From a virus, in IMG/VR virus record IMGVR_UViG_3300042691_019533, positions 1 to 64,000 of that record: 64,000 nucleotides of DNA. One strand, written 5' to 3'. Both the position numbers and the translations under genes were made by a program. Below are positions 5,666 through 61,704 of the stretch, in pieces. Under the pieces are notes generated by a model. That model ran no database searches. It had not been told where the DNA came from and saw only the letters and a list, made by a program, of their open reading frames with translations. The stretch's first letter is position 1. Each line of letters starts with the position of its first letter.

Positions 5666-7507
5666 TTAAACTGGTGTTGGAGTTTCTCCTCCAGTGGGTT
5701 GTTGTTCAGTCTCGGCTCCTTCTGGGGTTTCTTCTGATGCTGTTGCTGTTTCAGCTGTTCCAAATTCTGGGATTGCTGAAGCTCCACCTCCTCCAGCCCC
5801 TCCAAATTCGCTGGATGGTGCTGATGGTGCTTCACCGCCCATAGCTTGTTCTGCTGCGTTTTCTGTAGCTTCTATTTGTTCTCTCCAATTTGGTCCTAAT
5901 TGAGCTATCTTATCAAGTTCCCATTTAAATGCTGCGTCTTTTCTAAGCCACTCCATGTTTTCGCTAATTTTACTATCTCCAAATGAAAGATAATGTCTTT
6001 GTGCAAAAGTTTTAGATATAGAATCGGTCTGTGATATATCAGAAAATATTTTATATTTTAACTCAAATTCTTGATTTTTTCTAATTGCAAAAAAATTAGA
6101 GGGTGGATTAAATTCTAAATTAAACATTATTTCATTTAATTTAAATTCTTTCCAAATATTTTTTAATTTTAAATGTGTAATAAATGAATTTTTAAACGCT
6201 TCAGCAAATTGATTTTGTATTCTAATTACAAATTTTGCAAATTTTAATTCTTCTCTTAGTATTTCAGCCCCATCTTTAAATCCAGATTCCGGATTTATTC
6301 TAGTTAATGGAACTTTTAATGCTTTATATAATTTATTTACGAAATACATTAAATCTTCCAGTTTTCCTAAATTTTGTCCTCCCTGCAACATTTCCACATC
6401 AGAACCAGTTTCTCCTGTTCTTTTAGCAAACCAAAAAGAATCAAGCATTGATTGTGGATCGTAAACGTTTCCTGCTCCTTGCGTAGATCCCGAATCGTAT
6501 GTTTTCTTTGACCAATATGCTTGCATTAGTTGTTTTAAATATGCTTCTGCTTTTGCTGGCGGCATATTACCAACGTCTATTTTAAATTTAAGTCTTTCTG
6601 GTGCTCTAACCATTCTATAAATAACTATAGCATCTTCTAGAAGCGATAATTGTTTATATGCTCTTCTTGCTTGTTCTATAAATGGAGTTCTTATAGTTAG
6701 ATCTTCACTCCATGATCCCGAATGAATATATGTTACTTGATTGCCTTCTAATGTAATTAATTGTTGCTGTAAAGTATTTGCTGGATTTTGTTGATTATTA
6801 ATATTTTTTCTATCTTTATCTTGTAAATTTATAGGTTTTTGAAATATAAAATTTTGAATTATTTCGTTTTGGATATTATCATATATAGGATTAATTAACT
6901 CTCCCGGTATAGTTAATGCTCCAATTATACCTAGTTCTTTTTTTTCTTCATGTACGATATTTTCAAAAAATAATTCTCCTTCGGTTAAGAATTGTCTACA
7001 ATAACCCCATCCACGTGATTCTAAATCGAAATTTTTTATAAATTTATAAAATTCTTTTTCTATAGTGGTTCTAGTTTCAGAATCCGTTTTTCCAATTCCA
7101 GTAAAATTAATTTTAATTATTTTACCATTTTCATCTTTTGTTAAGAACTCATCGCAAATCTCATCCAAACAATCTGATATTTCAGCATAAGATGCCATTC
7201 TTCTATATTCTGATAATCTTCTTGTTTTATCTGAATCCACATTTGCATAAATATATTTATGATATGCTTTATCTGATGCGAAAGTTCCCGCTGATGCATC
7301 ATCTTGATAGAAAGGTCCGGTTATTACGGACTGTTTCATTACTCTTAACTGTCTATTCTTTGAAATTCTTTCAAACAACTCATATTTTGGATTATTAACG
7401 TCTGCTTCTGTAGTAGCTTGTACATATGGAAGTTTTTGCAGTATAGATGATACGAAACTTCTACCTGTATCTAATTGTTTATTTGGAGTTGGAATTATAG
7501 AAGGCAT
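5666..7507 (-). CDS. 20: Portal vertex protein (T4 gp20-like)
   Basis: A 613-residue portal protein, which forms the dodecameric ring at one capsid vertex through which DNA is packaged and to which the neck attaches. The amino region RRMASYAEISDCLDEICDEF (about residue 100) is the characteristic portal segment of T4-type phages. It is followed by the WGYCRQFLTEGELFFENI stretch, the AIVIYRMVRAPERLKFKIDVG region (crown/wing) and the LTRINPESGF segment near residue 405. The length compares with 524 in T4. The extra C-terminal tail is rich in Ala, Gly, Pro, Thr and Glu (TEQQPTGGETPTPV) and looks disordered. No capsid protease or scaffold gene follows here as it does in T4. Confidence 0.92.
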   Translation of the reverse strand: MPSIIPTPNKQLDTGRSFVSSILQKLPYVQATTEADVNNPKYELFERISKNRQLRVMKQSVITGPFYQDDASAGTFASDKAYHKYIYANVDSDKTRRLSEYRRMASYAEISDCLDEICDEFLTKDENGKIIKINFTGIGKTDSETRTTIEKEFYKFIKNFDLESRGWGYCRQFLTEGELFFENIVHEEKKELGIIGALTIPGELINPIYDNIQNEIIQNFIFQKPINLQDKDRKNINNQQNPANTLQQQLITLEGNQVTYIHSGSWSEDLTIRTPFIEQARRAYKQLSLLEDAIVIYRMVRAPERLKFKIDVGNMPPAKAEAYLKQLMQAYWSKKTYDSGSTQGAGNVYDPQSMLDSFWFAKRTGETGSDVEMLQGGQNLGKLEDLMYFVNKLYKALKVPLTRINPESGFKDGAEILREELKFAKFVIRIQNQFAEAFKNSFITHLKLKNIWKEFKLNEIMFNLEFNPPSNFFAIRKNQEFELKYKIFSDISQTDSISKTFAQRHYLSFGDSKISENMEWLRKDAAFKWELDKIAQLGPNWREQIEATENAAEQAMGGEAPSAPSSEFGGAGGGGASAIPEFGTAETATASEETPEGAETEQQPTGGETPTPV

Positions 7508-7560
7508 TTTTATTAATTTATTTATTACTTATTAGAATTAAAAATAAAATCATTATATTT

Positions 7561-8094
7561 TTATATATATATTCTATCATCATTTTCTTGTAAAAGATAC
7601 CCTTCATAATTTTGCAAGATAATAAACGGAAATATTAAATTTATATATATTCCAGAAATTGTAGGATTAAAATATTCAAATTGCTGAACACATGTTGTTT
7701 TTAATATAGAATCATTTGTTAATTTCGTATATCCCGCTTCGTTTTCTATTATTATATCTACAAATCCACTCGAATTAATAGATTGTGGAATGTCGAATAT
7801 TAAAAAATTATCAGTAAAACTAAAATTTTGTATTTTTTTAGCATAAAACATTAAATTTTTAGCTGATAAATTTTGTACTCCAGAAAAAGGGTTATAAAAA
7901 GTAGCATCTAAAAACATGTTTATTTCAGAAGAACTTAAATATACATTTGAAATATTTAAAAAACTACCATCTAATATTATTTCAAAACTGTTTTTAGAAG
8001 ATAATTCCGATTTAAATATAGTTAATTTATTTTTATTAACTTTATATATTTTGGGTTTTGCTGATATTGTTTTTGTTTCTTTTTTACATTTCAT
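7561..8094 (-). CDS. Structural protein with IPT/TIG-like beta pattern, unknown
   Basis: A 177-residue protein lying between the gp15-like gene and the portal gene, one base after the former. After a Lys-rich start, residues 20-120 show alternating strands (NSFEIILDGSFLNISNVYLSS, then GFVDIIIENEAGYTKLT) with the rhythm of an IPT/TIG-type immunoglobulin-like domain. No transmembrane segment or signal peptide is seen. Position between portal and tail-completion genes suggests a neck or head-tail accessory protein, but the family is not identified and this is inference. Confidence 0.6.
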   Translation of the reverse strand: MKCKKETKTISAKPKIYKVNKNKLTIFKSELSSKNSFEIILDGSFLNISNVYLSSSEINMFLDATFYNPFSGVQNLSAKNLMFYAKKIQNFSFTDNFLIFDIPQSINSSGFVDIIIENEAGYTKLTNDSILKTTCVQQFEYFNPTISGIYINLIFPFIILQNYEGYLLQENDDRIYI

Positions 8095-9954: not shown

Positions 9955-10332
9955 TTATTTAGGTTCGCAAACTCCAAAAATTCTTGATTCGTTTAAAAAT
10001 ACTATATTTTTTAAATCATTTAAGTTTGCAATTTGTATACCTTTATCGTTAGGAAATATTATAATATCTCCTTCTTTGACTGTTTTAGCGTCTGGACCAG
10101 CGAGCAATACTTTAGCTAGTCTCCAAGTAAAATTAACAGTATTAACTGGAACCCATATACTTCCCCTTTTTACTTCTGTTCCGTCATCGTTAACATCTAT
10201 ATATTGGCACATTAGAATATCATCCAATACTTTAGTTAATTTCCAATCCTCTAGATTCATAGTGCTTCCTATGTAATGATCTAGTTGAACTTTTCCGCCG
10301 ATTTTATCTTCTTGTGGTGGTCTTGGTATCAT
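9955..10332 (-). CDS. GroES / T4 gp31-like co-chaperonin
   Basis: A 125-residue co-chaperonin-like protein. The central part shows the GroES barrel rhythm: VLDDILMCQYIDVN, a loop DGTEVKRGSIWVPVN equivalent to the GroEL-binding mobile loop, AKVLLAGPDAKTVKEGDIIIF, and a final NESRIFGVCE. In T4, gp31 replaces GroES so that GroEL can fold the major capsid protein. An N-terminal extension of about 25 residues precedes the barrel. It begins the leftward structural string ten bases from the stop of the gp62-like gene. The role in capsid folding is inferred from the T4 parallel. Confidence 0.75.
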   Translation of the reverse strand: MIPRPPQEDKIGGKVQLDHYIGSTMNLEDWKLTKVLDDILMCQYIDVNDDGTEVKRGSIWVPVNTVNFTWRLAKVLLAGPDAKTVKEGDIIIFPNDKGIQIANLNDLKNIVFLNESRIFGVCEPK

Positions 10333-14484: not shown

Positions 14485-14909
14485 TGGTAAATAATTTATT
14501 AAAAATTTTTAAAGAAACTACTTGGTTTTTACATAGCGGTGTAGCACCTAAAAACGCTTCAAGTAGAATAAAGTCAAATCTTGAAGATATGAACCATATG
14601 ACATCTAAAAAATTTGCTATGACTATGATAGCTATAAGTGTTATAGCGTTTATGTATTTTTCTTCTGTTGCCTGTTTATTTTTATTCAAATCTGATCCTC
14701 ATGTTAGTGCATTAGTATCGATGTATAAAGATATGATTGTAGCAGTAGCTAGTATAGCAGCAACTTTAGTTGGTATTCAGGGATTAGTAGACTGGAAATA
14801 CAATTCTAATTCTGATGTAAATTTAAAATCAAATACAGAAAATATAAATGAAACATTAACATCTAATATCAAAGAAGATGATTATGATATATCAAAATTT
14901 TTATTATGA
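14484..14909 (+). CDS. Probable holin (two membrane segments)
   Basis: A 141-residue membrane protein with two hydrophobic helices, about residues 44-68 (FAMTMIAISVIAFMYFSSVA) and 84-104 (MIVAVASIAATLVGIQGLV), separated by a short polar loop, with a basic amino end and a hydrophilic C-terminal tail of about 35 residues. Its stop overlaps the endolysin start (ATGA at 14906), the standard holin-endolysin arrangement. It would open the inner membrane at lysis. The function rests on topology plus neighbour; no holin family was recognised, and T4 holin t has a different plan (one membrane segment and a periplasmic domain). Confidence 0.68.
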   Translation: MVNNLLKIFKETTWFLHSGVAPKNASSRIKSNLEDMNHMTSKKFAMTMIAISVIAFMYFSSVACLFLFKSDPHVSALVSMYKDMIVAVASIAATLVGIQGLVDWKYNSNSDVNLKSNTENINETLTSNIKEDDYDISKFLL

Positions 14910-15517
14910 ATACTCCATCTCCAAAAACATTAGATTTAATTTTAAAATATGAAGTAGGCGGTGGGAAAGCATACTATGAAAAATTCTTATCGAAACCAAC
15001 TTGGCCTGGTGGAGCTAGTGGTATGACGTTAGGTATAGGAATAGATTGTGCTTATTACACTCCACAAGAATTAAAAAAAATATTTAATTTTTTACCAGAA
15101 GATCAATTATATATTATAGTAAATGCTTCCGGAAAAACTGGATTAAAAGGAAAAGAATATACCATACAAAATAAAAATGGTGGAATTTATATTTCTTGGG
15201 AAAGAGCTATTGAATTATTTAATAAATTAATATGGTTCAAATTTTCAAAAATAGCAGAAAATACATTCCCAAAATTAAATGAATTAAAAGATGATGCTTA
15301 TGGAGCCATAGTATCTTTAGTGTTTAATAGAGGAGGGTCTTTAATAGGTGATTCTAGATTAGAAATGAGAAACATAAAAAAATTAATACCATTAAAAAAA
15401 TATAAAGATATTGCTACAGAAATAAGAAAAATGAAACGACTTTGGATTGGGAAAAATTTAGATGGATTAATCTCAAGAAGAGAAGATGAAGCCAAATTGA
15501 TTGAATCATGCATTTAA
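14906..15517 (+). CDS. Endolysin, pesticin/GH24-type muramidase
   Basis: A 203-residue peptidoglycan hydrolase that would cut the glycan strands at lysis. The start LDLILKYEVGGGKAYYEK places the catalytic Glu at residue 16. PTWPGGASGMTLGIGIDCAY supplies Thr41 and Asp47, matching the E...T(x5)D pattern of T4 lysozyme and pesticin. AYGAIVSLVFNRGGS (about residue 131) is the conserved second-lobe helix, followed by ISRREDEAKLIE, which corresponds to the substrate-lobe Arg region. There is no signal peptide, so release depends on the holin encoded just upstream. Confidence 0.85.
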   Translation: MNTPSPKTLDLILKYEVGGGKAYYEKFLSKPTWPGGASGMTLGIGIDCAYYTPQELKKIFNFLPEDQLYIIVNASGKTGLKGKEYTIQNKNGGIYISWERAIELFNKLIWFKFSKIAENTFPKLNELKDDAYGAIVSLVFNRGGSLIGDSRLEMRNIKKLIPLKKYKDIATEIRKMKRLWIGKNLDGLISRREDEAKLIESCI

Positions 15518-47586: not shown

Positions 47587-49710
47587 TTATTCGCATTCAA
47601 ATAAATTAAATGTAGGTTCTGGTATTAATTCTCCATCTGGAGTAAACTTAACTGGTGCGTCTACATAATCCTTATCACCAAAAGCATTATCAGAATTTAT
47701 ACCATATGATTGATTTCTTTTTATTCTAGCAGCTCTAATTCTAGATGCATTTCCGAATGGAGATCCTCCACCTCCACACGGTCCTAAATCTCCCAAGCTA
47801 GGATAGTTACCAGTTTGATTACCCATACCAGTAGCTCTAGCAGGAGTAGGAATAACGGAAGGTTCATCCCGTGAAGCCGTCGCCGCCGCAGCACTATCAT
47901 AACCAAGCATTCTAGGCATTATATAACTATGAGAATGTTGATCCCCCGGAGATCCATGATTATGAGTGTATGTATAAATCGGTATCATAGAAGGTGTTAC
48001 GAAAGCAGTACCATTTAATGAACTTATTCCTCCATAACTACATGTTCCAAATCCATAAACCGTAATTGGCATATATGTAGTATAATCATATATCATCGCA
48101 TATCCAGTCGGTAAAAAAGTATTATCAACAACTTGACTTATTTGTGCAGTTGAATATGTTTCTTCAGTAATAGTTTTAATAAAATCTGGACGCAATATTG
48201 CCAATAAAAGACTAACAACTGGAATTCTTTCTATATTTTTCCAAATTTTATCGAACACATCCATCGTAGTAGCATCCGGTTTTATTGGATTATTCCAATT
48301 TGATCCGGAATGTACATTATGTGGAGAACTAGATAATGTGGTTTGTGTATTTTCAATTGGTGTTATTAAATGATTACATTGAATACCCCCATCCATTACG
48401 ATTGAACCTTTAACTGCTAGATCTGCTTTTACGCTTAATTTTCCTCCAACCCAAACTCTATCAGATTCTAAACATATCGCATCACCATCTGCTTGCCTAG
48501 CTTCTATGACTACGTTTGCTCCGGATATTATAGTTTTATTTTTAGATGCCATCACTAATTCACCTTCAGTCGCATTAACTAAAGTTGTAGCTCCTACCAA
48601 TGCAGCTTTTCCAGATGTTTCTATAGTATAACCTCCAGACCCAACCGTTACATTATAACGCTGTCCTATATCCCAAGTTTTACTTCCGGCCAATAAAGTA
48701 GGAGGACTATATATAGCTCTTTTACATGCTCCAGCTGATGATGGAATTAAACACCAGTCTGGCTTCCCCTTTACTAATCCTGTAATTATAGGATTCTTTT
48801 CTCCAAAAGAAATTACTTTAGATTCGTTTCTAACTAATCCAATTTTTGTTATATAATCTGAAGAATAAGTTTTGATATGACTTTCTGCTGGTATTTGTTT
48901 TTGTAATTTTTCAATTTGTTTTTTATTTTTTTCGTATTCATCAGCAGCTGCTTTATTTCCTTGTTGTATTGCATAAAGAGGAGATGATATGGATCCATTT
49001 TTACAACCACTACATCCGCACGAACCTCCAGTTAATGCGGCTATTATTATATCATCAAGAAAAAACCCCAATACGGTTCGCAATACTGCTTGCGCCTTTT
49101 CCATTAAACTACCAAATGAAGAATTTGGTTTTATATTAAAAAGTGCATTTATATATTTAAACGCAGTATTAACCATTGTGGAAGCTCTATCTATGTCAAC
49201 TTTATTTGTTCCACAAACAGGGCATACAATTTTTTCATCATTCTTTGCGTTTTTTTCTATTTCTTCTACGCATTTATTATCTATCTGACTTGTTATTTTT
49301 TGTAATTTTTGAGCTGCTTCTACAGTTTTTTTATCGTGCGTTCCACTAATATAGTGATGAGATCCTCTTATAGTTTCATATTTGTCTCCGTAATAATAAT
49401 ATTGGGCGTCATTACCTACAAACTTATAATAATTAGCGGTAATATAATCAGATTTATCACTTGTTGTTTTGGATATTATTTTTCCTCCTCTAAAACTAAT
49501 AAAAGATTTATTTTTATCCTGTAACTGAATGAATGAAGTATCTTCAGGGATAAAAGATCCGAACTCGTCTTTCCTTACTTTATTACAAAATACTAAAGCT
49601 CCAGCTTCATTTCCTAATCTACTTTTTTCATATGACACATCTTGAGTTATTGTCGGTGGAACCAAACCTCCACTTAAATTTTGAAAAATACTAGTATCAA
49701 CTGCAATCAT
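47587..49710 (-). CDS. Baseplate spike-like protein with zinc-type Cys pairs
   Basis: A 707-residue protein just downstream of the gp5-like hub gene (33-base gap). A strand-rich amino part (about residues 1-120) precedes a helical insert with CPVCGTNK (about 163) and SCGCSGCKNG (about 232), two Cys pairs that could bind one zinc. Next comes a repeated beta segment, GGYTIETSGKAALVGATTLV and NKTIISGANVVIEARQADGD, typical of the beta-helix of a puncturing device, with GSIVMDGGIQCNHL. The C-terminal part has a His-rich YTYTHNHGSPGDQHSHSY and a Gly-rich stretch. It is probably the central spike or tip assembly; no exact T4 homologue was identified. Confidence 0.65.
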   Translation of the reverse strand: MIAVDTSIFQNLSGGLVPPTITQDVSYEKSRLGNEAGALVFCNKVRKDEFGSFIPEDTSFIQLQDKNKSFISFRGGKIISKTTSDKSDYITANYYKFVGNDAQYYYYGDKYETIRGSHHYISGTHDKKTVEAAQKLQKITSQIDNKCVEEIEKNAKNDEKIVCPVCGTNKVDIDRASTMVNTAFKYINALFNIKPNSSFGSLMEKAQAVLRTVLGFFLDDIIIAALTGGSCGCSGCKNGSISSPLYAIQQGNKAAADEYEKNKKQIEKLQKQIPAESHIKTYSSDYITKIGLVRNESKVISFGEKNPIITGLVKGKPDWCLIPSSAGACKRAIYSPPTLLAGSKTWDIGQRYNVTVGSGGYTIETSGKAALVGATTLVNATEGELVMASKNKTIISGANVVIEARQADGDAICLESDRVWVGGKLSVKADLAVKGSIVMDGGIQCNHLITPIENTQTTLSSSPHNVHSGSNWNNPIKPDATTMDVFDKIWKNIERIPVVSLLLAILRPDFIKTITEETYSTAQISQVVDNTFLPTGYAMIYDYTTYMPITVYGFGTCSYGGISSLNGTAFVTPSMIPIYTYTHNHGSPGDQHSHSYIMPRMLGYDSAAAATASRDEPSVIPTPARATGMGNQTGNYPSLGDLGPCGGGGSPFGNASRIRAARIKRNQSYGINSDNAFGDKDYVDAPVKFTPDGELIPEPTFNLFECE

Positions 49711-49743: not shown

Positions 49744-50895
49744 CTATATATAGGTATTAGATGGTTCTATAAAAGCACCAATAACTATAGGACTTAAATG
49801 ATTTCCATCCAAAAACATAACATATGCTTTTGCTCCCACTTGAGGAGCACTTATAAATCCAATAGAGCTTCCCGCATTTCCAATATACGACGACCCATCC
49901 CCTGAGGAGCCGTTAAAATCTGTACATATTCTTGGTACTAGTTCTGGTGGTTTGGTTACTACTATGGGATCAGTAGATGGTTGCATTTCCGGAAGAGGAG
50001 TTTCAAAATCAATTCTCTCTATTTCAGATGAAAGAGTCCCTTGGCGATTATTAATACCATTAGCTTTTTGAGCTAATTTTTCAGATTCTATATTGTTTTT
50101 AGCTATTGTAAACCATTTTGGTTCAGAAACTAACGATTTAATTTCTGGTTTATCAGTAACTTCATCTGCTGATCTTGGCCATCCAACGTGAAGATGATCG
50201 CCTTCCCAGTATATTTTAGAAACCCCAGGCTGGTTAGCAAACCAATTAAGATATGCAGCCTTAGTTTGGTCTGTTATTGGGTTTTTATTTTTATCTAGAG
50301 CACTAATGTCTAATGCAAGACCACCTTTAGCGTAAGGACCACTTTCATTTTTATTATTATCGGGATAATGAGCACTACCAGCACTATGACCAGTTGATTC
50401 AGCCGCGCCGGATATCCTAGCATCCGGAAAATTAGAAAGAAAATGCGTTGCGTTATTATATACAGATGAATTTAAATTAGCTACATTTGTTCTATTTGGA
50501 TCGGGAGTATTTAAATTTTCTAATGGAATTTCATCAGTTGGTGTACTTGGTGATTCTCCATCAAGATTCAAATACAATGTATCTGATTCTGATTCTACTT
50601 CTGTAGGTATTGGGGTTGGATTGTTGTTATTATCAACCGGAGCACCAGTTCCACCACCAAAAAATGGCATAGCTACTTCAGCCCAAGGTAATACATCAAT
50701 TAATCTTTGAGTTATTTCAGGTGTAAAAACATCAGAATCCAAAGTTCTAAATCTTATATTTTTATTAGATTCATTCCAACCGGAATATAAAGTATTTGTC
50801 AAATGAGGAATATATACTTGAACTCTTCCTTTTTGCTTTGGGTCTTTATTATTTACAACAAGTCCTATATAAATATTATTTAAAGATGTAGTCAT
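49744..50895 (-). CDS. gp5-like baseplate hub protein with M15-type peptidase-like domain
   Basis: A 383-residue hub protein. The amino part (residues 1-85) has the OB-fold start YIGLVVNNKDPKQKGRVQVY and PWAEVAMPFFGGG of T4 gp5-type hubs. A Pro/Thr/Asn-rich linker follows, then residues about 145-240 look like a zinc peptidase of M15 type: STGHSAGSAHYPDN (His170, His176), GLALDIS (Asp196) and EGDHLHVGW (Asp233, His234, His236). The C-terminus returns to the OB/strand pattern GFISAPQVGAKAYVMF and GNHLSPIVIGAFI. T4 gp5 carries lysozyme in the hub; here a peptidase would act on stem peptides during injection. It follows the 519-residue gene and precedes the spike gene. Confidence 0.72.
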   Translation of the reverse strand: MTTSLNNIYIGLVVNNKDPKQKGRVQVYIPHLTNTLYSGWNESNKNIRFRTLDSDVFTPEITQRLIDVLPWAEVAMPFFGGGTGAPVDNNNNPTPIPTEVESESDTLYLNLDGESPSTPTDEIPLENLNTPDPNRTNVANLNSSVYNNATHFLSNFPDARISGAAESTGHSAGSAHYPDNNKNESGPYAKGGLALDISALDKNKNPITDQTKAAYLNWFANQPGVSKIYWEGDHLHVGWPRSADEVTDKPEIKSLVSEPKWFTIAKNNIESEKLAQKANGINNRQGTLSSEIERIDFETPLPEMQPSTDPIVVTKPPELVPRICTDFNGSSGDGSSYIGNAGSSIGFISAPQVGAKAYVMFLDGNHLSPIVIGAFIEPSNTYI

Positions 50896-50900
50896 TTATA

Positions 50901-52460
50901 TTATGTAGCTGGAAGTCTTTGTTGATTAGGATTTATGCTATCCGTTAATCCCTCATCTTCATCTGGCTTTGCACTATTAATATTTTTATTAGATTTAAAT
51001 GGATTTATAGAATTTAAAAAATCACCAGCACCAGCTAAATCTTTTGGTAAATCAGTTTGTAATCCTTTGAATTCTTTAGTTAATATTTTGAAGTTTTGTT
51101 TTAAATTAGCTCCTATATCATATGGATCTTTTGGATTTCCTAAAACATCTTCTGTTCCACCATTGTAATAATTAGCATCCATCAAATCATTAACATCCGG
51201 TATACTAGAATCATCTGAATTGTATCTCTCCCAAATTGATTTAGCTTTACTCATCACATCACTTAGAGGAGTAACGCCAGAAGAATATTTAGAACCATAT
51301 TTTTCAACTAAAGCTCCGACAATATCTCCTTGTAGAGCAGTATTTATATAAGATAATCCAAAATTAGCCAAATTATCAGATATAAATCCTTCGGGATCTT
51401 CCCCGATACTATTAAAATTATCTATATATTTTTTAACGTCTTCCGGAAGAAATGCTGCTAATGTAGTAAATGGATTTTGTATAAAATTAGAAGTAGTATT
51501 TACATAGGTTTGAATGGTATTTAAATAATTTAACCACGGACCACTTGCGTTAAATAAAGAAGTAAAGAAATTTATATCATCTAAAACGATTTGAACTGTA
51601 TCTAGTATTAAACATAACAAATCTAAAGGGATGATTTGATTTATGAGATTTAAAAGAAATAATTTTATATTATTTATTATTATATTTATAGTGGCGTAAA
51701 CTTTTCTTATTAGTTTAGTTAACTGTTTATAAAAATCATTTATTAAAGTGTTTAAAGTTCTAACTACACCATTTATTAAATTCATAACTCTTCTGATGGA
51801 ACCAAAAGCACCAGTAGGCATTGATAAATAAGATCTAGTTCTTATAGTATTACAAAATTTTTCCAAGCTATTAACAGATCCGGGTGCTATTTTTTCCATA
51901 GCATTAGTAACTAAACTTGGAGTAAACCTATTAGGTCCAGTCATAGCGTTATTATCTCTCCTATCTCCATTAGCTTCGATGTTTCCAAATTGTCCAATAC
52001 TATCAAAAGATCCTTTACTATACGCTGGAGTTTTTTTTAAAATTTCAGTTAATTGTGGTATATTTATCATTCTTTGAAAATCTTTTATAAAGATTTCATC
52101 CGCTACATATTTTTCACCATTAACTTGTACTGTCATTACATTATTATCAAATCCTTCAGTTAAAAAATGTAAAAGAAGAAGATATTTTAATCTATTTAAA
52201 TCAGTAAATTGATGCTTTATTCTAGCTAATTCTCCACCTAAAATGTAAGGTAAAAGATTTAAATTTGTTTTTGATTCTAATGATCTAATTTCTTTTTTTA
52301 ATTCATTTAATTCTTCTTTTGATTGTATTACTTTAGAAGAAGGTGGTTCGACGCGAGATTTTTTAACTTTAGGTAAACCTGTTTCTTTAATGTCTTTCCC
52401 TACTGACTTAGGAGTAGTTTCTTTTTTTGTATTTTTAGCCGAAACTTTTTGAATTGCCAT
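50901..52460 (-). CDS. Large tail/baseplate protein, unknown
   Basis: A 519-residue protein. The amino 60 residues are basic, Lys/Ser/Thr/Pro-rich and probably disordered. Then come a helical block LKKEIRSLESKTNLNLLPYI, a folded region with YVADEIFIKDFQRMINIPQL, and a long hydrophobic helical stretch (about residues 240-295, with IRKVYATINIIINNIKLFLL and NLINQIIPLDLLCLILDTVQ). The C-terminus is acidic and ends NPNQQRLPAT. The hydrophobic stretch resembles a tape-measure or membrane-interacting segment. Position before the gp5-like gene suggests a hub or injected protein. Confidence 0.6.
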   Translation of the reverse strand: MAIQKVSAKNTKKETTPKSVGKDIKETGLPKVKKSRVEPPSSKVIQSKEELNELKKEIRSLESKTNLNLLPYILGGELARIKHQFTDLNRLKYLLLLHFLTEGFDNNVMTVQVNGEKYVADEIFIKDFQRMINIPQLTEILKKTPAYSKGSFDSIGQFGNIEANGDRRDNNAMTGPNRFTPSLVTNAMEKIAPGSVNSLEKFCNTIRTRSYLSMPTGAFGSIRRVMNLINGVVRTLNTLINDFYKQLTKLIRKVYATINIIINNIKLFLLNLINQIIPLDLLCLILDTVQIVLDDINFFTSLFNASGPWLNYLNTIQTYVNTTSNFIQNPFTTLAAFLPEDVKKYIDNFNSIGEDPEGFISDNLANFGLSYINTALQGDIVGALVEKYGSKYSSGVTPLSDVMSKAKSIWERYNSDDSSIPDVNDLMDANYYNGGTEDVLGNPKDPYDIGANLKQNFKILTKEFKGLQTDLPKDLAGAGDFLNSINPFKSNKNINSAKPDEDEGLTDSINPNQQRLPAT

Positions 52461-52546: not shown

Positions 52547-53152
52547 ATGAAATATCCATTAATTGGAATATCGGGAGCAGCCAGATCAGGAAAAGATACT
52601 TTATGCAGAGCTTTAATTAGATTTTTTAAAACTAAAGAAATAAACTCTCGAAGAGTTTCTATAGCTGGAGATATAATTAAAAATGATTTAAAAAATTTAA
52701 TATTCAAAAAGATAGGATTAGATACATTTACTGAACATACAAATGATAAAAAAATACTAAGACCGCTTCTAGTGGAGTATGGAAAACTAATGAGAACGAG
52801 TAGTGAAGGAAGATATTTTATAGATAAATTTCAAGAAAAAGATAATATAATAACTATTATACCAGATATAAGATATGCAGAATTTAAAAATGATGAATTA
52901 GATTGGATTAAAAACGAGAATAATGGATTTTTAATTTTTATAAATCACGAATATATTAAAGATGCTAATATAACAGAAAAAGTTAACAATAAAATTATTA
53001 AAAAACAATCAGATTTTAAATTAAAATGGTCAACATTAAACGAAAAAAATCCAATAGATATGCAAAAAATAAATGATATAGCAGAAAAAATTGGAAGTTT
53101 ATATCTTAATAATTACCATTTACCAATCGGACAAACCGATGCCTTTAAATAA
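52547..53152 (+). CDS. 1: Deoxynucleoside monophosphate kinase (T4 gp1-like)
   Basis: A 201-residue P-loop kinase that phosphorylates dNMPs for phage DNA synthesis. The P-loop GAARSGKDT is at residues 10-18; a SRRVSIAGDIIKNDLKNLIF segment follows, then KKILRPLLVEYGKLMRTSSE (about 75), a region resembling the substrate-binding stretch of phage dNMP kinases, and ITIIPDIRYAEFKNDELDWI (about 103), whose DxRY is characteristic. It has its own promoter, and its 3' end overlaps a convergent gene by 40 bases. Confidence 0.8.
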   Translation: MKYPLIGISGAARSGKDTLCRALIRFFKTKEINSRRVSIAGDIIKNDLKNLIFKKIGLDTFTEHTNDKKILRPLLVEYGKLMRTSSEGRYFIDKFQEKDNIITIIPDIRYAEFKNDELDWIKNENNGFLIFINHEYIKDANITEKVNNKIIKKQSDFKLKWSTLNEKNPIDMQKINDIAEKIGSLYLNNYHLPIGQTDAFK

Positions 53153-53421
53153 GTTTTTATAGCCATGTTACAACCACATTTTGAACATTTCTGAGAATCT
53201 TTTATAAAGAACTCACAAGAATTACATATATTTTTTCTACTTTCTATTTCAGAATTTTCAGATGTAATGGGATTACCTTCAGAAAAGCTTTTTACGTTTT
53301 TTATAAGATCTGATCCTAAATTTTTTGCCATCTGAAATGGAGAAGGTAACCTCTTATTAGAGGATTCTAATGTTCTAATTTTATTTTGCTGTATCATTTT
53401 TCTAAGATTATTTTTATCCAT
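53113..53421 (-). CDS. Zinc-ribbon-type small protein
   Basis: A 102-residue protein. A basic amino end (MDKNNLRKMIQQNKIRTLES, SSNKRLPSPFQMAKNL) leads to a C-terminal Cys cluster: RKNICNSCEFFIKDSQKCSK, then CGCNMAIKTYLKASVCPIGKW, with C-x2-C, C-x2-C-x-C and a final Cys. This metal-binding end looks like the DUF6171-type zinc ribbon found in T4-like phages. Partner unknown. It overlaps the dNMP kinase gene by 40 bases tail to tail and lies 15 bases after the gp27-like gene. Confidence 0.72.
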   Translation of the reverse strand: MDKNNLRKMIQQNKIRTLESSNKRLPSPFQMAKNLGSDLIKNVKSFSEGNPITSENSEIESRKNICNSCEFFIKDSQKCSKCGCNMAIKTYLKASVCPIGKW

Positions 53422-53436
53422 ATTAATATATTTAAA

Positions 53437-55026
53437 CTAATAGTTTTTATCTTCAATATCCCAAAGCTTAGAAAAAGTATCAATTTTATTTGCTACCACT
53501 TCTGTTTTATAATCATTTTTTGTAAAAAGATGAGTTACAGAAGTTATTAACCATTGACCCAAAAACCTATCATTAAATGGATTTAAATCTCCAGAATTTA
53601 TACTATCAACAAATATAAACTTTCCGGGTGTTCGGCACGTTAATCCTTTTTGCTGAAAAGACAACGTTTGATTTAAAAATAAAAAATCTCTAATCATTTG
53701 AATTGATGGTACATTTTCATCTATATAAGGATCAGCTGAAAATTTATTATTAATCATTAACCCGCTTGATTTTGTTTTATTTATATTTGTTAATATATGA
53801 GGTTTATTATTAACATTTTGAGGTGTAAAATTATATAAAGTTGCTTTTGACATTTCTTCAATTTTTTTTATGGTATTTTGTATTGAATTTGGTTCAAAAA
53901 CTATATTAAATTGTCCATTTATAGTATCAAAATAATGTAATGGAGAATTTATCATTCTACTAGTATCGTCTACTGGAGCCATAGGAGAAAATTTATAATT
54001 TGAAATTCTAGAATATCCAGATATTAAATTATTTCCTTCTTCTTCATCTTTATTTTCATCTAAATACGCTCTAGGTACATATGGTAATATATTGTCGTTA
54101 TTAGCAGAATTTTCATCCAATATAAGTCTTTCTATTTGTTTATTAGAATTTTCTAATATTTCAGTTAATGAAATTAATTCAAAATATTTATTTACACTAC
54201 TTCTTCCAAATTCTAAAAATACAGGATCATTATTATCACCAACGCAACGTGAAAGTAAAAAATTTATATCATCGATTACGTTAAATTGCGCAGGAGAAAC
54301 ATAAAATTTATTTACTGCATCTTTTGGTCCTAGATTCCAATTATAAATATCTCCAAGTTTTATATTAGGTTTATCTATACTTGATTCTTCAGTAAACCCT
54401 ACCGTTATTGATTTTTCATTATTCTGAGAAGCAAACTTTATTAATTCAAATAATGCAACATTTGCACTTAAATTTCGAAGGGACTCATCTCTTTCTATAT
54501 CTTCTCTTTTTATTGTGGTTCCTTCCATGTTTAAAGCGGCATACGTAGTAGACCATTCTATATTTTTTTCTAAAAATATTTGATATCTCTCATCTACAAA
54601 ATAATATCTTTTTAATTTATTTTGCATATTATCGGAAGGGAGATCTTCTACATCATATATAACTAAATCATAAGACATTTCCCATTTTAATTTATCTTTA
54701 AATTCATCATCATTTTCATCTACTGGTATTATTCTTATGTGAATTTTATTTCTACCATCATTTCTATCTATATATAGATGTTTTGTTTTTTTATTATTAT
54801 TATTTAAAAAATCTCTTTGTGTTATTTCAAACGTATTATTTAAGACGATATTTCCAGTAACCCACCAATTAATTAATGTTTCGTTTATAGTTAAAGAATC
54901 AACTATAAAAGCTGGAATTGGAACTGGATCCTCTATTAAATTATAAAAATATATTTCAATAATATATTTTTCATTATTTATTTGATGTGCAAAAAAACTT
55001 TTGTCTAATTTTTTCTTATCAGCCAT
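53437..55026 (-). CDS. 27: Baseplate hub protein, gp27-like
   Basis: A 529-residue protein. The amino part (FFAHQINNEKYIIEIYFYNL, FIVDSLTINETLINWWVTG, GNIVLNNTFEIT) matches the first tube-like domain of a hub protein. The C-terminal part has IQMIRDFLFLNQTLSFQQKG, LTCRTPGKFIFVDS and DRFLGQWLITSVTHLFTKND, the R-x-P-G...G-x-W pattern typical of gp27/late-control D-type hub proteins. It would form the trimeric ring that bridges baseplate and tube and holds gp5. It follows the tube-like gene with a one-base gap. Confidence 0.75.
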   Translation of the reverse strand: MADKKKLDKSFFAHQINNEKYIIEIYFYNLIEDPVPIPAFIVDSLTINETLINWWVTGNIVLNNTFEITQRDFLNNNNKKTKHLYIDRNDGRNKIHIRIIPVDENDDEFKDKLKWEMSYDLVIYDVEDLPSDNMQNKLKRYYFVDERYQIFLEKNIEWSTTYAALNMEGTTIKREDIERDESLRNLSANVALFELIKFASQNNEKSITVGFTEESSIDKPNIKLGDIYNWNLGPKDAVNKFYVSPAQFNVIDDINFLLSRCVGDNNDPVFLEFGRSSVNKYFELISLTEILENSNKQIERLILDENSANNDNILPYVPRAYLDENKDEEEGNNLISGYSRISNYKFSPMAPVDDTSRMINSPLHYFDTINGQFNIVFEPNSIQNTIKKIEEMSKATLYNFTPQNVNNKPHILTNINKTKSSGLMINNKFSADPYIDENVPSIQMIRDFLFLNQTLSFQQKGLTCRTPGKFIFVDSINSGDLNPFNDRFLGQWLITSVTHLFTKNDYKTEVVANKIDTFSKLWDIEDKNY

Positions 55027-55027
55027 A

Positions 55028-55636
55028 TTAACAATTTCTAGAAGAACTATTTATTAACATATCTATATGCAATTGATTAAATGAAAAAGTAGCGTTACAC
55101 GTAATCTCGTTTCCTTCTTGATTTGAAAAAATAATTTCACTTAAAGATGTAGGGAAAACATCTTTATAATTAAAACTTATTATTTTATTATTATATTCAT
55201 CCAATCCAAATATAGAAAATCTAGTAGTAAAATCTGACATAGGAGATGTTATGTTTGGTATCTCATCTCTTAGTATCGGAACGTTTGTAGCGTGAGTTAA
55301 CTCACTACCACCTTCTTTATAATCATTAAATAAATTTAACCAATTCCAAATTAACCAGTAGTTATAATAAGAATTATCAATTAAAAATTTTACAGTTAAT
55401 GGGTTATATGCTGGTCTACTTAAACTAGATGCTTTATATACTTGTCCACCATATGGTATATCAAGATCTGGAATTTTTACGTCTGGAACTGGAGAACCAT
55501 ATATTGTTATCTGTAAAGGATCTACTAAAAATTTACCTTTAAAATCATTATCATATTTATTTTTTAATGCTTTTGGTATATCTATAATTAATAGATATTT
55601 ATCATTTCTGGATCTATTCAATGATGATTGATACAT
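55028..55636 (-). CDS. Tail tube-like protein (gp54/gp19 fold)
   Basis: A 202-residue protein with the tube-fold order: DPLQITIYGSPVPDVKIPDL, then IPYGGQVYKASSLSRPAYNP, LTVKFLIDNSYYNYWLIWNW (about residue 80), LNLFNDYKEGG, FTTRFSIFGLDEYNNKIISF, DVFPTSLSEI and ITCNATFSFNQLHIDML. This is the pattern of gp19-like tube and gp54-type tube-initiator proteins. As another tube-like gene sits at 63536, one of the two may be the initiator or an alternate tube subunit. It lies between terminase and gp27-like hub. Confidence 0.7.
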   Translation of the reverse strand: MYQSSLNRSRNDKYLLIIDIPKALKNKYDNDFKGKFLVDPLQITIYGSPVPDVKIPDLDIPYGGQVYKASSLSRPAYNPLTVKFLIDNSYYNYWLIWNWLNLFNDYKEGGSELTHATNVPILRDEIPNITSPMSDFTTRFSIFGLDEYNNKIISFNYKDVFPTSLSEIIFSNQEGNEITCNATFSFNQLHIDMLINSSSRNC

Positions 55637-59415: not shown

Positions 59416-61704
59416 TTATACTACTTTTAGTTGGTTTGCCGATGAATAATAATTCATTCTATTTATCCAATTACTATCTCTTACTGGAGACATTAAATAT
59501 TCTTTGTTTGAATTCCCAGATTGAGTTACTGTGGAATTATTTACAACAACAGAAGATTGATTATTTTGATTTTTTATTAAAACAGATAATTTACTGTCAA
59601 CGCTAGACATGACATCAAAAAGATTTTTTAATCCTTTATCTAAAAATCCATTTGGTTTAGCACTAAAAGTTACATCTTCTGGATTTGTAGATTTTACAGT
59701 TTTACCATTAAAAATTTTAACTTCTCCTCTTTCTTCATTATCATCAACCTTTTCTTCTGGCCATTCGAGTTGTCCGCCTCGTGGATTTATTTTCCCGCTT
59801 TCATCGTATTTCGGAATAATTCTAGGAGTTGGTTCTTTTGGGCGATTTTTAAAATCTTCATCTAATTTTTTAGCGCGGTCCAATTCAGCTTGTACTCTCT
59901 CCTGACCTCTTTTTGTTGCTTTTTCTCCGCTTTCTTGTGCATAGGTATCTTGAAGTTTTTCTAGTTCTTTTTGTCTTTTATTTAAAAATTCTAAATCTTT
60001 TTCGGCTTGCATTCTATCCGAATCGAGTACGCCACCAGAATTTAATTGTTCTGTTTTTTTGCGCATTAAATGTTTATTCTCAAAAATTTTATTTTTTAAA
60101 TCTTTGCTAGATTCTATAGCTGGTATTTCTTCTACAGCAGAATCTATTCCAAAGAAAGGAGCAACAATAGATTTTAACCAATCAGGCATACCAGAAATTA
60201 TTTTCTTACCTAATGCTTTATATAAATTACCGAATGTTATTTTTTTATTTCCGCGAGAATCTGTAGATACTCCTTGTTCATAAAAAGGTAATAAAAATGA
60301 AGATAAAATGGAAAACGGAGTTCCTTCCATAGCTTTTAATGAGCTTATAACATCTCCCGCATTACCACCTGACATCATAGCATAAGAAAATTTAACATAC
60401 GCTTCTGCTCCTTTAACTATAGAACCAATTAAAGGTATTTCTTTTATAAAGTTATAAATTGCTGGTCCTATATTTTTTAATATATTTAATTTACTTTTTT
60501 GTTGTTCTTCTGGTGTTTTACCTTCTGCTTTATAATCTAAAAAACCATTTAATACTGCCGCACCAATAGAAAGTCCTATTCCTAAAGGTGCTAGAGGACT
60601 AAACTGTAAAAGGCTGCCTATACCACCAACTACGTCTATTAAAGATCCTATATAATCTCCTTTTGTATATCTATCATAAGCAAAATAAAAACTAATTAGT
60701 GCGCCTATTCCCGGAGCAGCTTTTAATGCTACTAATCCTAAACCTCTAAATAAATTTCCAGCTATACTAGGTAGTAATGTTTTAATTCCTACTTTTGAAG
60801 CTGCTTCAGCCCCGCTTCCTATTACTGCACCAACTCCACCTTTAAAAAATATACTTAATGATGTTTCTAAGAAGTTACCAAAAGTTTTAGAAACAATACC
60901 AAAAAGACTCAATCCACTAGTAGTAAAAAATTTACCTATTCCTTCTACTATACCCATAAATTTATCTAAAAAATCAAGTTTAGTCCCAAAAAAATCTTCT
61001 AACCAAGGTTTTACATTATCACTCCAATTAGCAGCTAATAAAGTAGCTCCAACACCACCTAATAATATAGTAGTTAGAGTACCAAGAAGACCATCAAAAA
61101 AACCACTACCCGTTCTTTTATCTAAAATAATATTATTATCTTTAGAAATCTCTTCTGCTTTATTATTTTTTTCTACTACTTTATTTAAATATGTATCAAA
61201 TAATCCGTCTACATATGAAGACGTTTCTTCTGAAAATTTTATAGTAGTTGTTTTTTCACCTAAAGTTTTCTGCTCACTTAAATTTTCATCCTTTTTAGTT
61301 GTAGAACTTTCTTTAATATTAGAAGTATTTTCATCGTTTTTAACTGTTGAAGTTTCTCTAAGATTAGAGATTGAAGATAGGTTGCTTAAATCATCTATAT
61401 CTTTATTTGCTTTTTTTAAAGATTGTTTTAGTTTTGATTTATAATCTTGTAAATCTTTTTTTAATTCATCTACGTTTCTAACTGTTTTTGATAATCCTAA
61501 AGGATCAAAAATTCTTTTAATATCTTCTGTTTCTAAAGATCTTAATTCCTTTTCAAATTTATTTAAGAATTTAGATTTAAACGTTTTTCTTAAATCATTT
61601 AAATAAGTTTCATCTTGCCCAAAAAAGATTTGATTAATAAATGATTTTGCATCTACCGTTCCGTTAAATTCTAATTTAGATAAAACTTCTAAAATATCAG
61701 ACAT
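59416..61704 (-). CDS. Tail tape measure protein
   Basis: A 762-residue protein. The amino part (residues 1-190) is a Lys/Glu-rich coiled region with LRKTFKSKFLNKFEKELRSL. The central part (about 205-470) has several hydrophobic segments (LLGTLTTILLGGVGATLLAA, GGVGAVIGSGAEAA, IPLIGSIVKGAEAYVKFSYA), as expected of tape measure proteins. The last third is charged with a Gln/Lys-rich coil (KKTEQLNSGGVLDSDRMQAE). It sets tail length and is probably injected. The N-terminal half resembles gp29-type proteins only by composition. Confidence 0.78.
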   Translation of the reverse strand: MSDILEVLSKLEFNGTVDAKSFINQIFFGQDETYLNDLRKTFKSKFLNKFEKELRSLETEDIKRIFDPLGLSKTVRNVDELKKDLQDYKSKLKQSLKKANKDIDDLSNLSSISNLRETSTVKNDENTSNIKESSTTKKDENLSEQKTLGEKTTTIKFSEETSSYVDGLFDTYLNKVVEKNNKAEEISKDNNIILDKRTGSGFFDGLLGTLTTILLGGVGATLLAANWSDNVKPWLEDFFGTKLDFLDKFMGIVEGIGKFFTTSGLSLFGIVSKTFGNFLETSLSIFFKGGVGAVIGSGAEAASKVGIKTLLPSIAGNLFRGLGLVALKAAPGIGALISFYFAYDRYTKGDYIGSLIDVVGGIGSLLQFSPLAPLGIGLSIGAAVLNGFLDYKAEGKTPEEQQKSKLNILKNIGPAIYNFIKEIPLIGSIVKGAEAYVKFSYAMMSGGNAGDVISSLKAMEGTPFSILSSFLLPFYEQGVSTDSRGNKKITFGNLYKALGKKIISGMPDWLKSIVAPFFGIDSAVEEIPAIESSKDLKNKIFENKHLMRKKTEQLNSGGVLDSDRMQAEKDLEFLNKRQKELEKLQDTYAQESGEKATKRGQERVQAELDRAKKLDEDFKNRPKEPTPRIIPKYDESGKINPRGGQLEWPEEKVDDNEERGEVKIFNGKTVKSTNPEDVTFSAKPNGFLDKGLKNLFDVMSSVDSKLSVLIKNQNNQSSVVVNNSTVTQSGNSNKEYLMSPVRDSNWINRMNYYSSANQLKVV

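Follow-up and report, generated by a model that had tools for sequence, protein, structure and literature searches.

The tail module described here appears to encode a gp5-type baseplate hub with an exchangeable hydrolase cassette in the loop of its OB domain, in this phage a LAS-type zinc peptidase that would act at entry, and we hold this reading to be fairly probable. The window, that is, the whole stretch of 64,000 nucleotides analysed, consists of positions 1 to 64,000 of the IMG/VR record IMGVR_UViG_3300042691_019533. What the analysis shows directly for this hub is that its OB domain is split, that the cassette has been exchanged, that the gene after it is separate and that the insert is homologous in sequence to LAS domains.

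Hub gene and its split OB domain

The hub gene is an intact ORF, and an identical ORF (100% identity) was found on a second IMG/VR contig. Its parts are as follows (residue numbers refer to the hub protein).

49744..50895, minus strand: hub gene, intact ORF with ATG start, 383 aa; split OB domain with an inserted putative hydrolase cassette
50635..50895, minus strand: N-terminal half of the OB domain, residues 1-87, ending in FFGGGTGAPV; PF04717 match; 70-86% identity with relatives
50515..50634, minus strand: linker, residues 88-127, rich in Pro, Asn, Ser and Glu; low pLDDT
50173..50508, minus strand: predicted LAS / Hedgehog-DD-peptidase-like domain, residues about 130-241, from pairwise z, helix-strand order and LAS structures among the fold matches
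49891..50172, minus strand: C-terminal cassette linker, residues 242-335, from sequence and low pLDDT
49747..49890, minus strand: C-terminal half of the OB domain, residues 336-383; PF06890/DUF6484 and VgrG-type OB matches; 60-63% identity with relatives

Comparison with PHROGs assigned the protein to phrog_430 (baseplate hub subunit/tail lysozyme; E 4.8e-7), and its only Pfam domain is the Phage_base_V OB domain PF04717 (42.5 bits; curated cutoff 23.8), matched in two stretches. The better of these covers hub residues 9-40 (profile positions 1-32), and OB-type profile matches (PF06890, VgrG) were obtained for residues 341-380; for the hub of the relative L003, it is the C-terminal stretch (profile 40-73) that matches PF04717 best. 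Once the insert was removed and the flanks were joined, the PF04717 score rose from 42.5 to 47.1 bits, and the joined residues 1-87 and 336-383 gave a full-length alignment with the OB domains of CP220, RHph_TM30, S-H38 and P-RSM6, which have no interruption. An earlier, sequence-only reading of this DNA had placed gp5-like OB-type segments at both ends of the protein; the PF04717, PF06890 and VgrG matches bear this out, but, as judged from these alignments, the segments make up a single OB domain, with one half at each end, rather than two separate ones. AlphaFold2 did not predict the OB halves with confidence, and the split OB domain rests on sequence.

The insert, 248 aa in length, comes directly after the LPW...PFFGGGTGAP segment. 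The equivalent LPW...PTFQGGSGKG of RHph_TM30 is nearly continuous with the next strand and represents a visible empty site; no enzyme was found in the OB loop of any of the T4-like gp5 proteins compared (CP220, RHph_TM30, P-RSM6 and S-H38).

The sequence-only reading had put the enzyme at the position of the T4 lysozyme. It interrupts the OB fold instead, the beta-helix-like spike has a gene of its own, and the Pfam search gave no PF00959 match within the hub protein. An ordinary T4-type gp5, in which a hydrolase simply replaces the lysozyme between OB and spike, would agree with the phrog_430 match and the gene neighbourhood; however, the hub ORF ends with OB sequence, its C-terminal 48 residues being the second OB half and not a beta-helix (the chain carries no triple-stranded beta-helix at its C-terminus), and the beta-helix-like protein is encoded separately in all relatives. 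We give this explanation hardly any credence.

Predicted spike gene and tail-module neighbours

The genes that matter for the reading of the hub are listed below.

47587..49710, minus strand: predicted spike gene, 707 aa; beta-helix-like/repeat-like segments and an HNHGSPGDxHSH motif; next gene in all relatives
50901..52460, minus strand: upstream tail gene; weak tape-measure-like match (phrog_5493, E 7e-5); 56-68% identity between the window and relatives
53437..55026, minus strand: probable gp27-like hub partner, assigned from position and C-terminal motif; only match phrog_52 tail protein (E 0.056)
55028..55636, minus strand: tail tube protein (phrog_45, E 3e-15)
14906..15517, plus strand: phage lysozyme-family endolysin (muramidase type); PF00959 E 3e-7 and 7.7e-9 in two profile searches

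From its sequence and position, we infer that the 707-aa gene encodes the beta-helix spike, the predicted counterpart of gp5C. In the window it starts 33 nt past the stop codon of the hub gene, and the order hub, then spike gene, is common to all five relatives (L002 to L006). The predicted spike has the Cys clusters CPVCG and GGSCGCSGC and a HNHGSPGDQHSH motif, conserved in all relatives, which are possible metal-binding segments. A further relative of the spike (L055) lacks the hub, its start lying within the spike gene. The muramidase endolysin that the sequence-only reading had attributed to the phage itself was recovered as the PF00959 protein listed above.

Three other genes of the window were noted. 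The gp27-like gene is separated from the hub operon by a gene for a 102-aa Cys-rich protein (53113-53421; DUF6171, E 8e-7), which is conserved at that place in the relatives. The 762-aa protein at 59416-61704 has a weak match to phrog_790 'endolysin', a label that is probably misleading, the sequence being tape-measure-like with no Pfam hydrolase match. A GroES/Cpn10-like protein is encoded at 9955-10332 (PF00166, 20.7 bits, slightly below cutoff).

Exchange of the insert among related phages

Across three related phage types, identity ranges from 39 to 91% for the tail genes and from 57 to 95% for the OB halves. Between the window and L002, identity amounts to 73% for the tube, 70% for the gp27-like protein, 67% for the upstream gene, 86% and 63% for the N- and C-terminal OB halves, respectively, and 64% for the spike, while the inserts of the same two hubs gave no BLAST match at E<10. 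The inserts of L002 and L006 are 76% identical to one another. The 467-aa insert of L003 shows a weak VanY match (E 1e-3) together with PF18013 Phage_lysozyme2 (E 2.5e-12), and the hubs of L004 and L005 are the same protein as that of L003. Three dissimilar inserts occupy one site over a constant backbone, and the exchange is seen in three phage types. Recognisable cell-wall hydrolase types among the three are those of the window and of L003. The VanY-like part of L003, which is LAS-type, scored z 4.6 against the window domain, which suggests some relation in fold between these two inserts.

The L003 hub (5992-7800) is a 602-aa protein with both its VanY-like and its Phage_lysozyme2 domain within the OB insert. 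The hubs of L002 (5998-7221) and L006 (5998-7197) carry an insert of about 270 aa with ANETG and DIGFAQNN motifs, for which no Pfam hydrolase match was obtained (nor any PDB match for the L002 hub), and which is a candidate new cell-wall hydrolase domain; to call it 'lysozyme-like', from one Glu and a GFAQ-type motif, would be a guess.

Sequence similarity of the insert to LAS domains

The motif set reported by the sequence-only reading is present as described, namely H170-x5-H176, GLALD (192-196) and DHLH (233-236), with Pro/Asn/Ser-rich stretches on either side. The motif S.H...G.A.D[ILVFM]...[DEH].H occurs a single time across all long frames of the window; when the domain was shuffled 200,000 times, 20 of the shuffles contained this pattern, which had been picked after the sequence had been seen. 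Searches of Pfam and NCBIfam gave no curated M15, VanY or HH_signal profile match for the window protein, a result that the sequence-only reading had itself named as speaking against an M15-like peptidase, and PF08291 had no match anywhere in the record.

A DHxHVGW scan of IMG/VR recovered genuine M15_3 proteins, which align with the window domain across SxH, GxAxD and DHxHVGW. Profiles made from those alignments had as their top PDB matches 1lbu (E 1.7e-4), VldE 9flh (0.017), M15C and Desert hedgehog (DHH). These profiles include members other than that of the window, and alone are no proof of its membership; the direct pairwise test described below is independent of them. An HMM of four independent M15_3 proteins gave no signal for the window domain (331 of 2000 shuffles were as good), and with another profile, from which DHLHVGW was masked, 21 of 2000 shuffles were as good.

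In the pairwise test, the window domain scored 72.5 against DHH, a fragment chosen since the profile search had pointed to Hedgehog, vs 27.6 for shuffles (z 8.1; 0 of 3000 as high), and none of 1000 shuffles was as high when DHLHVGW was masked. A z of 7.5, above all 3,000 shuffles, was obtained against the phage LAS domain L119 (found, like that of L101, by the pattern HYxGxAxDI, a mild selection), and a z of 7.6 against a microvirus LAS domain (L078). The control, the phage's own lysozyme-family endolysin, gave a z of 0.3. The likeness does not extend to every LAS domain: z was 0.7 with 1lbu and 0.1 with one M15_3 protein. L119 (12529-14445, minus strand) is a phage ORF of 639 aa whose LAS domain is of the Hedgehog type and which weakly matches PF07486 Hydrolase_2, and the L101 domain has PF13539 and PF01085 HH_signal matches below cutoff.

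These similarities argue for homology of the insert to LAS domains, its closest type apparently being the Hedgehog/DD-peptidase-like LAS group, without the calcium ligands of Hedgehog. On the strength of intermediates, pairwise similarity and predicted topology, the insert is likely a LAS-type zinc peptidase. The M15-like peptidase of the sequence-only reading is upheld to the extent that the domain is LAS/M15-like by pairwise similarity, but not as regards the curated M15 profiles, nor the zinc motif, which is H-x19-D and not H-x6-D.

Several other leads were discarded. A tblastn search of the whole hub against 50,697 phage records yielded no match at E 0.01. With the hub centre, tblastn matches to mycobacteriophage minor tail proteins, which are devoid of the motif set, and phmmer matches to antibody chains in the PDB were due to chance. 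A match to a Chitinophaga genome contig (L017), in which no ORF with the motif set was found, and three further genome matches, all weak (E 0.01-0.05) and two with internal stops, were treated likewise, as were two extra matches (L060 and L063) from a scan for the conserved OB motif.

Predicted fold of the insert

A model made without any homologue of the hub centre showed a helix (133-153), two strands (160-164 and 195-198), a second helix (209-220) and two further strands (227-231 and 234-238), with block pLDDT of up to 87 in the region of helix 209-220. The helix-strand order is of the LAS type, even with no centre homologue in the alignment. With four distant homologues the model reached a pLDDT of 65, the zinc loop being poor (39-48). 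In a fold search, the first AF2 model returned generic alpha/beta matches only. Hedgehog structures hold many of the top places in Foldseek, yet at E 0.13-0.3, the best LAS structure having E 0.13. VIA-align gave Z 5.5 for 1vhh over 100 residues, 5.3 for 1lbu over 99, 4.9 for VldE, 4.7 for LysB4 and 4.3 for MepA, and unrelated folds scored at similar Z, mostly over shorter alignments. The fold search thus seems enriched for LAS structures, an enrichment not significant alone. The structural comparison to LAS peptidases proposed in the sequence-only reading gave a mixed result: the topology fits and Hedgehog and 1lbu are among the top matches, but the best Foldseek E was 0.13 and unrelated folds ranked level.

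We consider it very improbable that the insert has some other metallo- or non-metal fold, of a generic ferredoxin-like kind, with coincidental LAS motifs. Such a fold would be consistent with the failure of M15 profiles to detect the insert and with the ranking of PulL and trehalose phosphatase, unrelated alpha/beta domains, level with LAS structures. It is at odds with the pairwise z of 7-8 to DHH, L119 and the microvirus domain, a similarity that persists with DHLHVGW masked, and with the length of the LAS alignments, which cover about 100 residues (105 for 1u10, besides 1vhh and 1lbu) vs 71-79 for the unrelated top rows.

Predicted active site

The site of Hedgehog (Hh) and DD-peptidases consists of the zinc ligands H141, D148 and H183, the catalytic E177, and the stacking H135 and H181 (PMC6027127, PMC8052667). 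In alignments, all six residues are matched one to one by the window domain, as listed below with the Shh equivalents.

50386..50388, minus strand: H170, equivalent of the stacking His H135 (alignments)
50368..50370, minus strand: H176, predicted zinc ligand 1 (H141); invariant in alignment A4
50323..50361, minus strand: 13-residue insert, residues 179-191, between zinc ligands 1 and 2 (alignments)
50308..50310, minus strand: D196, predicted zinc ligand 2 (D148); invariant in alignment A4
50203..50205, minus strand: E231, predicted catalytic base (E177); alignment to DHH and microvirus L078
50188..50196, minus strand: H234-L-H236, with H234 the predicted stacking His (H181) and H236 predicted zinc ligand 3 (H183); invariant in alignment A4

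The H-x-H with an upstream catalytic Glu is present (E231, H234-L-H236), and the canonical H-x(6)-D spacing is absent (H176-x19-D196). The 13 extra residues between the first two zinc ligands perhaps explain why M15 profiles missed the domain; because they break the H-x6-D signature, zinc binding stays a prediction. Shh E127, D130 and D132, which have roles in calcium binding (PMC8052667), correspond in the alignment to S162, A165 and S167, and the Hedgehog calcium site therefore appears absent.

Disruption of the H-x6-D zinc motif would also be expected of a LAS-like domain that is catalytically dead or non-enzymatic, its fold being kept to bind peptidoglycan or to stabilise the baseplate; Hedgehog itself is often termed a pseudo-peptidase (PMC8052667), and the zinc geometry did not come out in the model. 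Nevertheless, all six active-site positions are retained in the alignment, including the catalytic Glu E231, and in L003 and its near-copies the same slot still holds domains recognisable as cell-wall hydrolases. We regard a dead domain as unlikely and favour an active peptidase.

Proposed mechanism

According to the mechanism we propose for the hub peptidase, the OB loop after the LPW...FFGGGTG strand would have acquired an exchangeable cell-wall-hydrolase cassette, here a LAS-type (Hedgehog/DD-peptidase-like) zinc peptidase tethered by flexible linkers rich in Pro and Asn. At infection, a spike made as a separate chain would lead the hub into the periplasm, where every hub subunit would cleave the peptidoglycan, at its peptide stems or cross-bridges, to let the tail tube through; the lysozyme-family endolysin would act later, at lysis. 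Since that endolysin is encoded separately in the record, two different bonds would be attacked, one at entry by the hub peptidase and one at exit by the endolysin. Cleavage of the T4 gp5 kind, which frees the lysozyme, may be unneeded because spike and hub are separate chains. For this hub, we infer that it is part of the virion, forms a trimer, binds zinc and is catalytically active, as well as which bond it cuts and when.

More broadly, the OB loop may be a plug-in socket for hydrolases of unrelated families across the phage clade, with the membrane-piercing spike made as a separate chain, so that the enzyme could be fitted to the host wall without rebuilding of the baseplate or T4 cleavage; we put the chances of this at about even. 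The central hub of a contractile tail would then offer a natural domain-insertion site that takes different domain families while the surrounding machine remains constant, and phage change of wall-penetration chemistry becomes testable thereby. The candidate virion hydrolases also gain a member, a LAS peptidase of the Hedgehog-like kind whose zinc loop is altered.

Comparison with known systems

The window domain resembles the Hedgehog N-domain, BacHh and the M15A DD-peptidases in that the zinc ligands, the catalytic Glu and the two stacking His align; it differs in that the calcium ligands are missing and that 13 extra residues stand between zinc ligands 1 and 2. With the LAS domains of L119, L101 and microvirus OR148990 it shares the S-x-H-Y ... 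G-x-A-x-D-I ... H-x-H pattern (L119 also has GHSxGSxHY), although those domains lie in large ORFs (639 and 1,259 aa) or in a small microvirus ORF and show H-x6-D spacing. The nearest annotated OB domains are those of the gp5-like proteins of Campylobacter phage CP220 and Rhizobium phage RHph_TM30, whose OB loop, unlike that of the window, bears no enzyme.

In T4 gp5, the OB domain, the lysozyme and the triple-stranded beta-helix follow one another in one chain, which is cleaved (PMC3004832). The window hub is similarly an OB-type hub/spike adaptor that bears a predicted cell-wall hydrolase at the same place in the tail module, but here the OB domain itself houses the predicted enzyme, which is of LAS type, and the spike has its own gene. 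The hub gp15 of the Anabaena myophage A-1(L) has extra lysozyme, endoglucanase and peptidase domains, two of them active on host cells, the peptidase being among the active domains (PMC10966104). It is likewise a baseplate hub with added hydrolase; unlike in the window, however, the A-1(L) enzymes are on the hub barrel protein, and no enzyme is described for gp25, the OB-bearing spike of that phage (PMC10966104). A literature search, outside whose coverage many journals lie, found no hydrolase inside a gp5-type OB domain. For phages, the shuffling of lytic domains has been documented extensively (PMC10684548), and added hydrolases on tail hubs are already known; what is new here is not the principle but the insertion site and the exchange.
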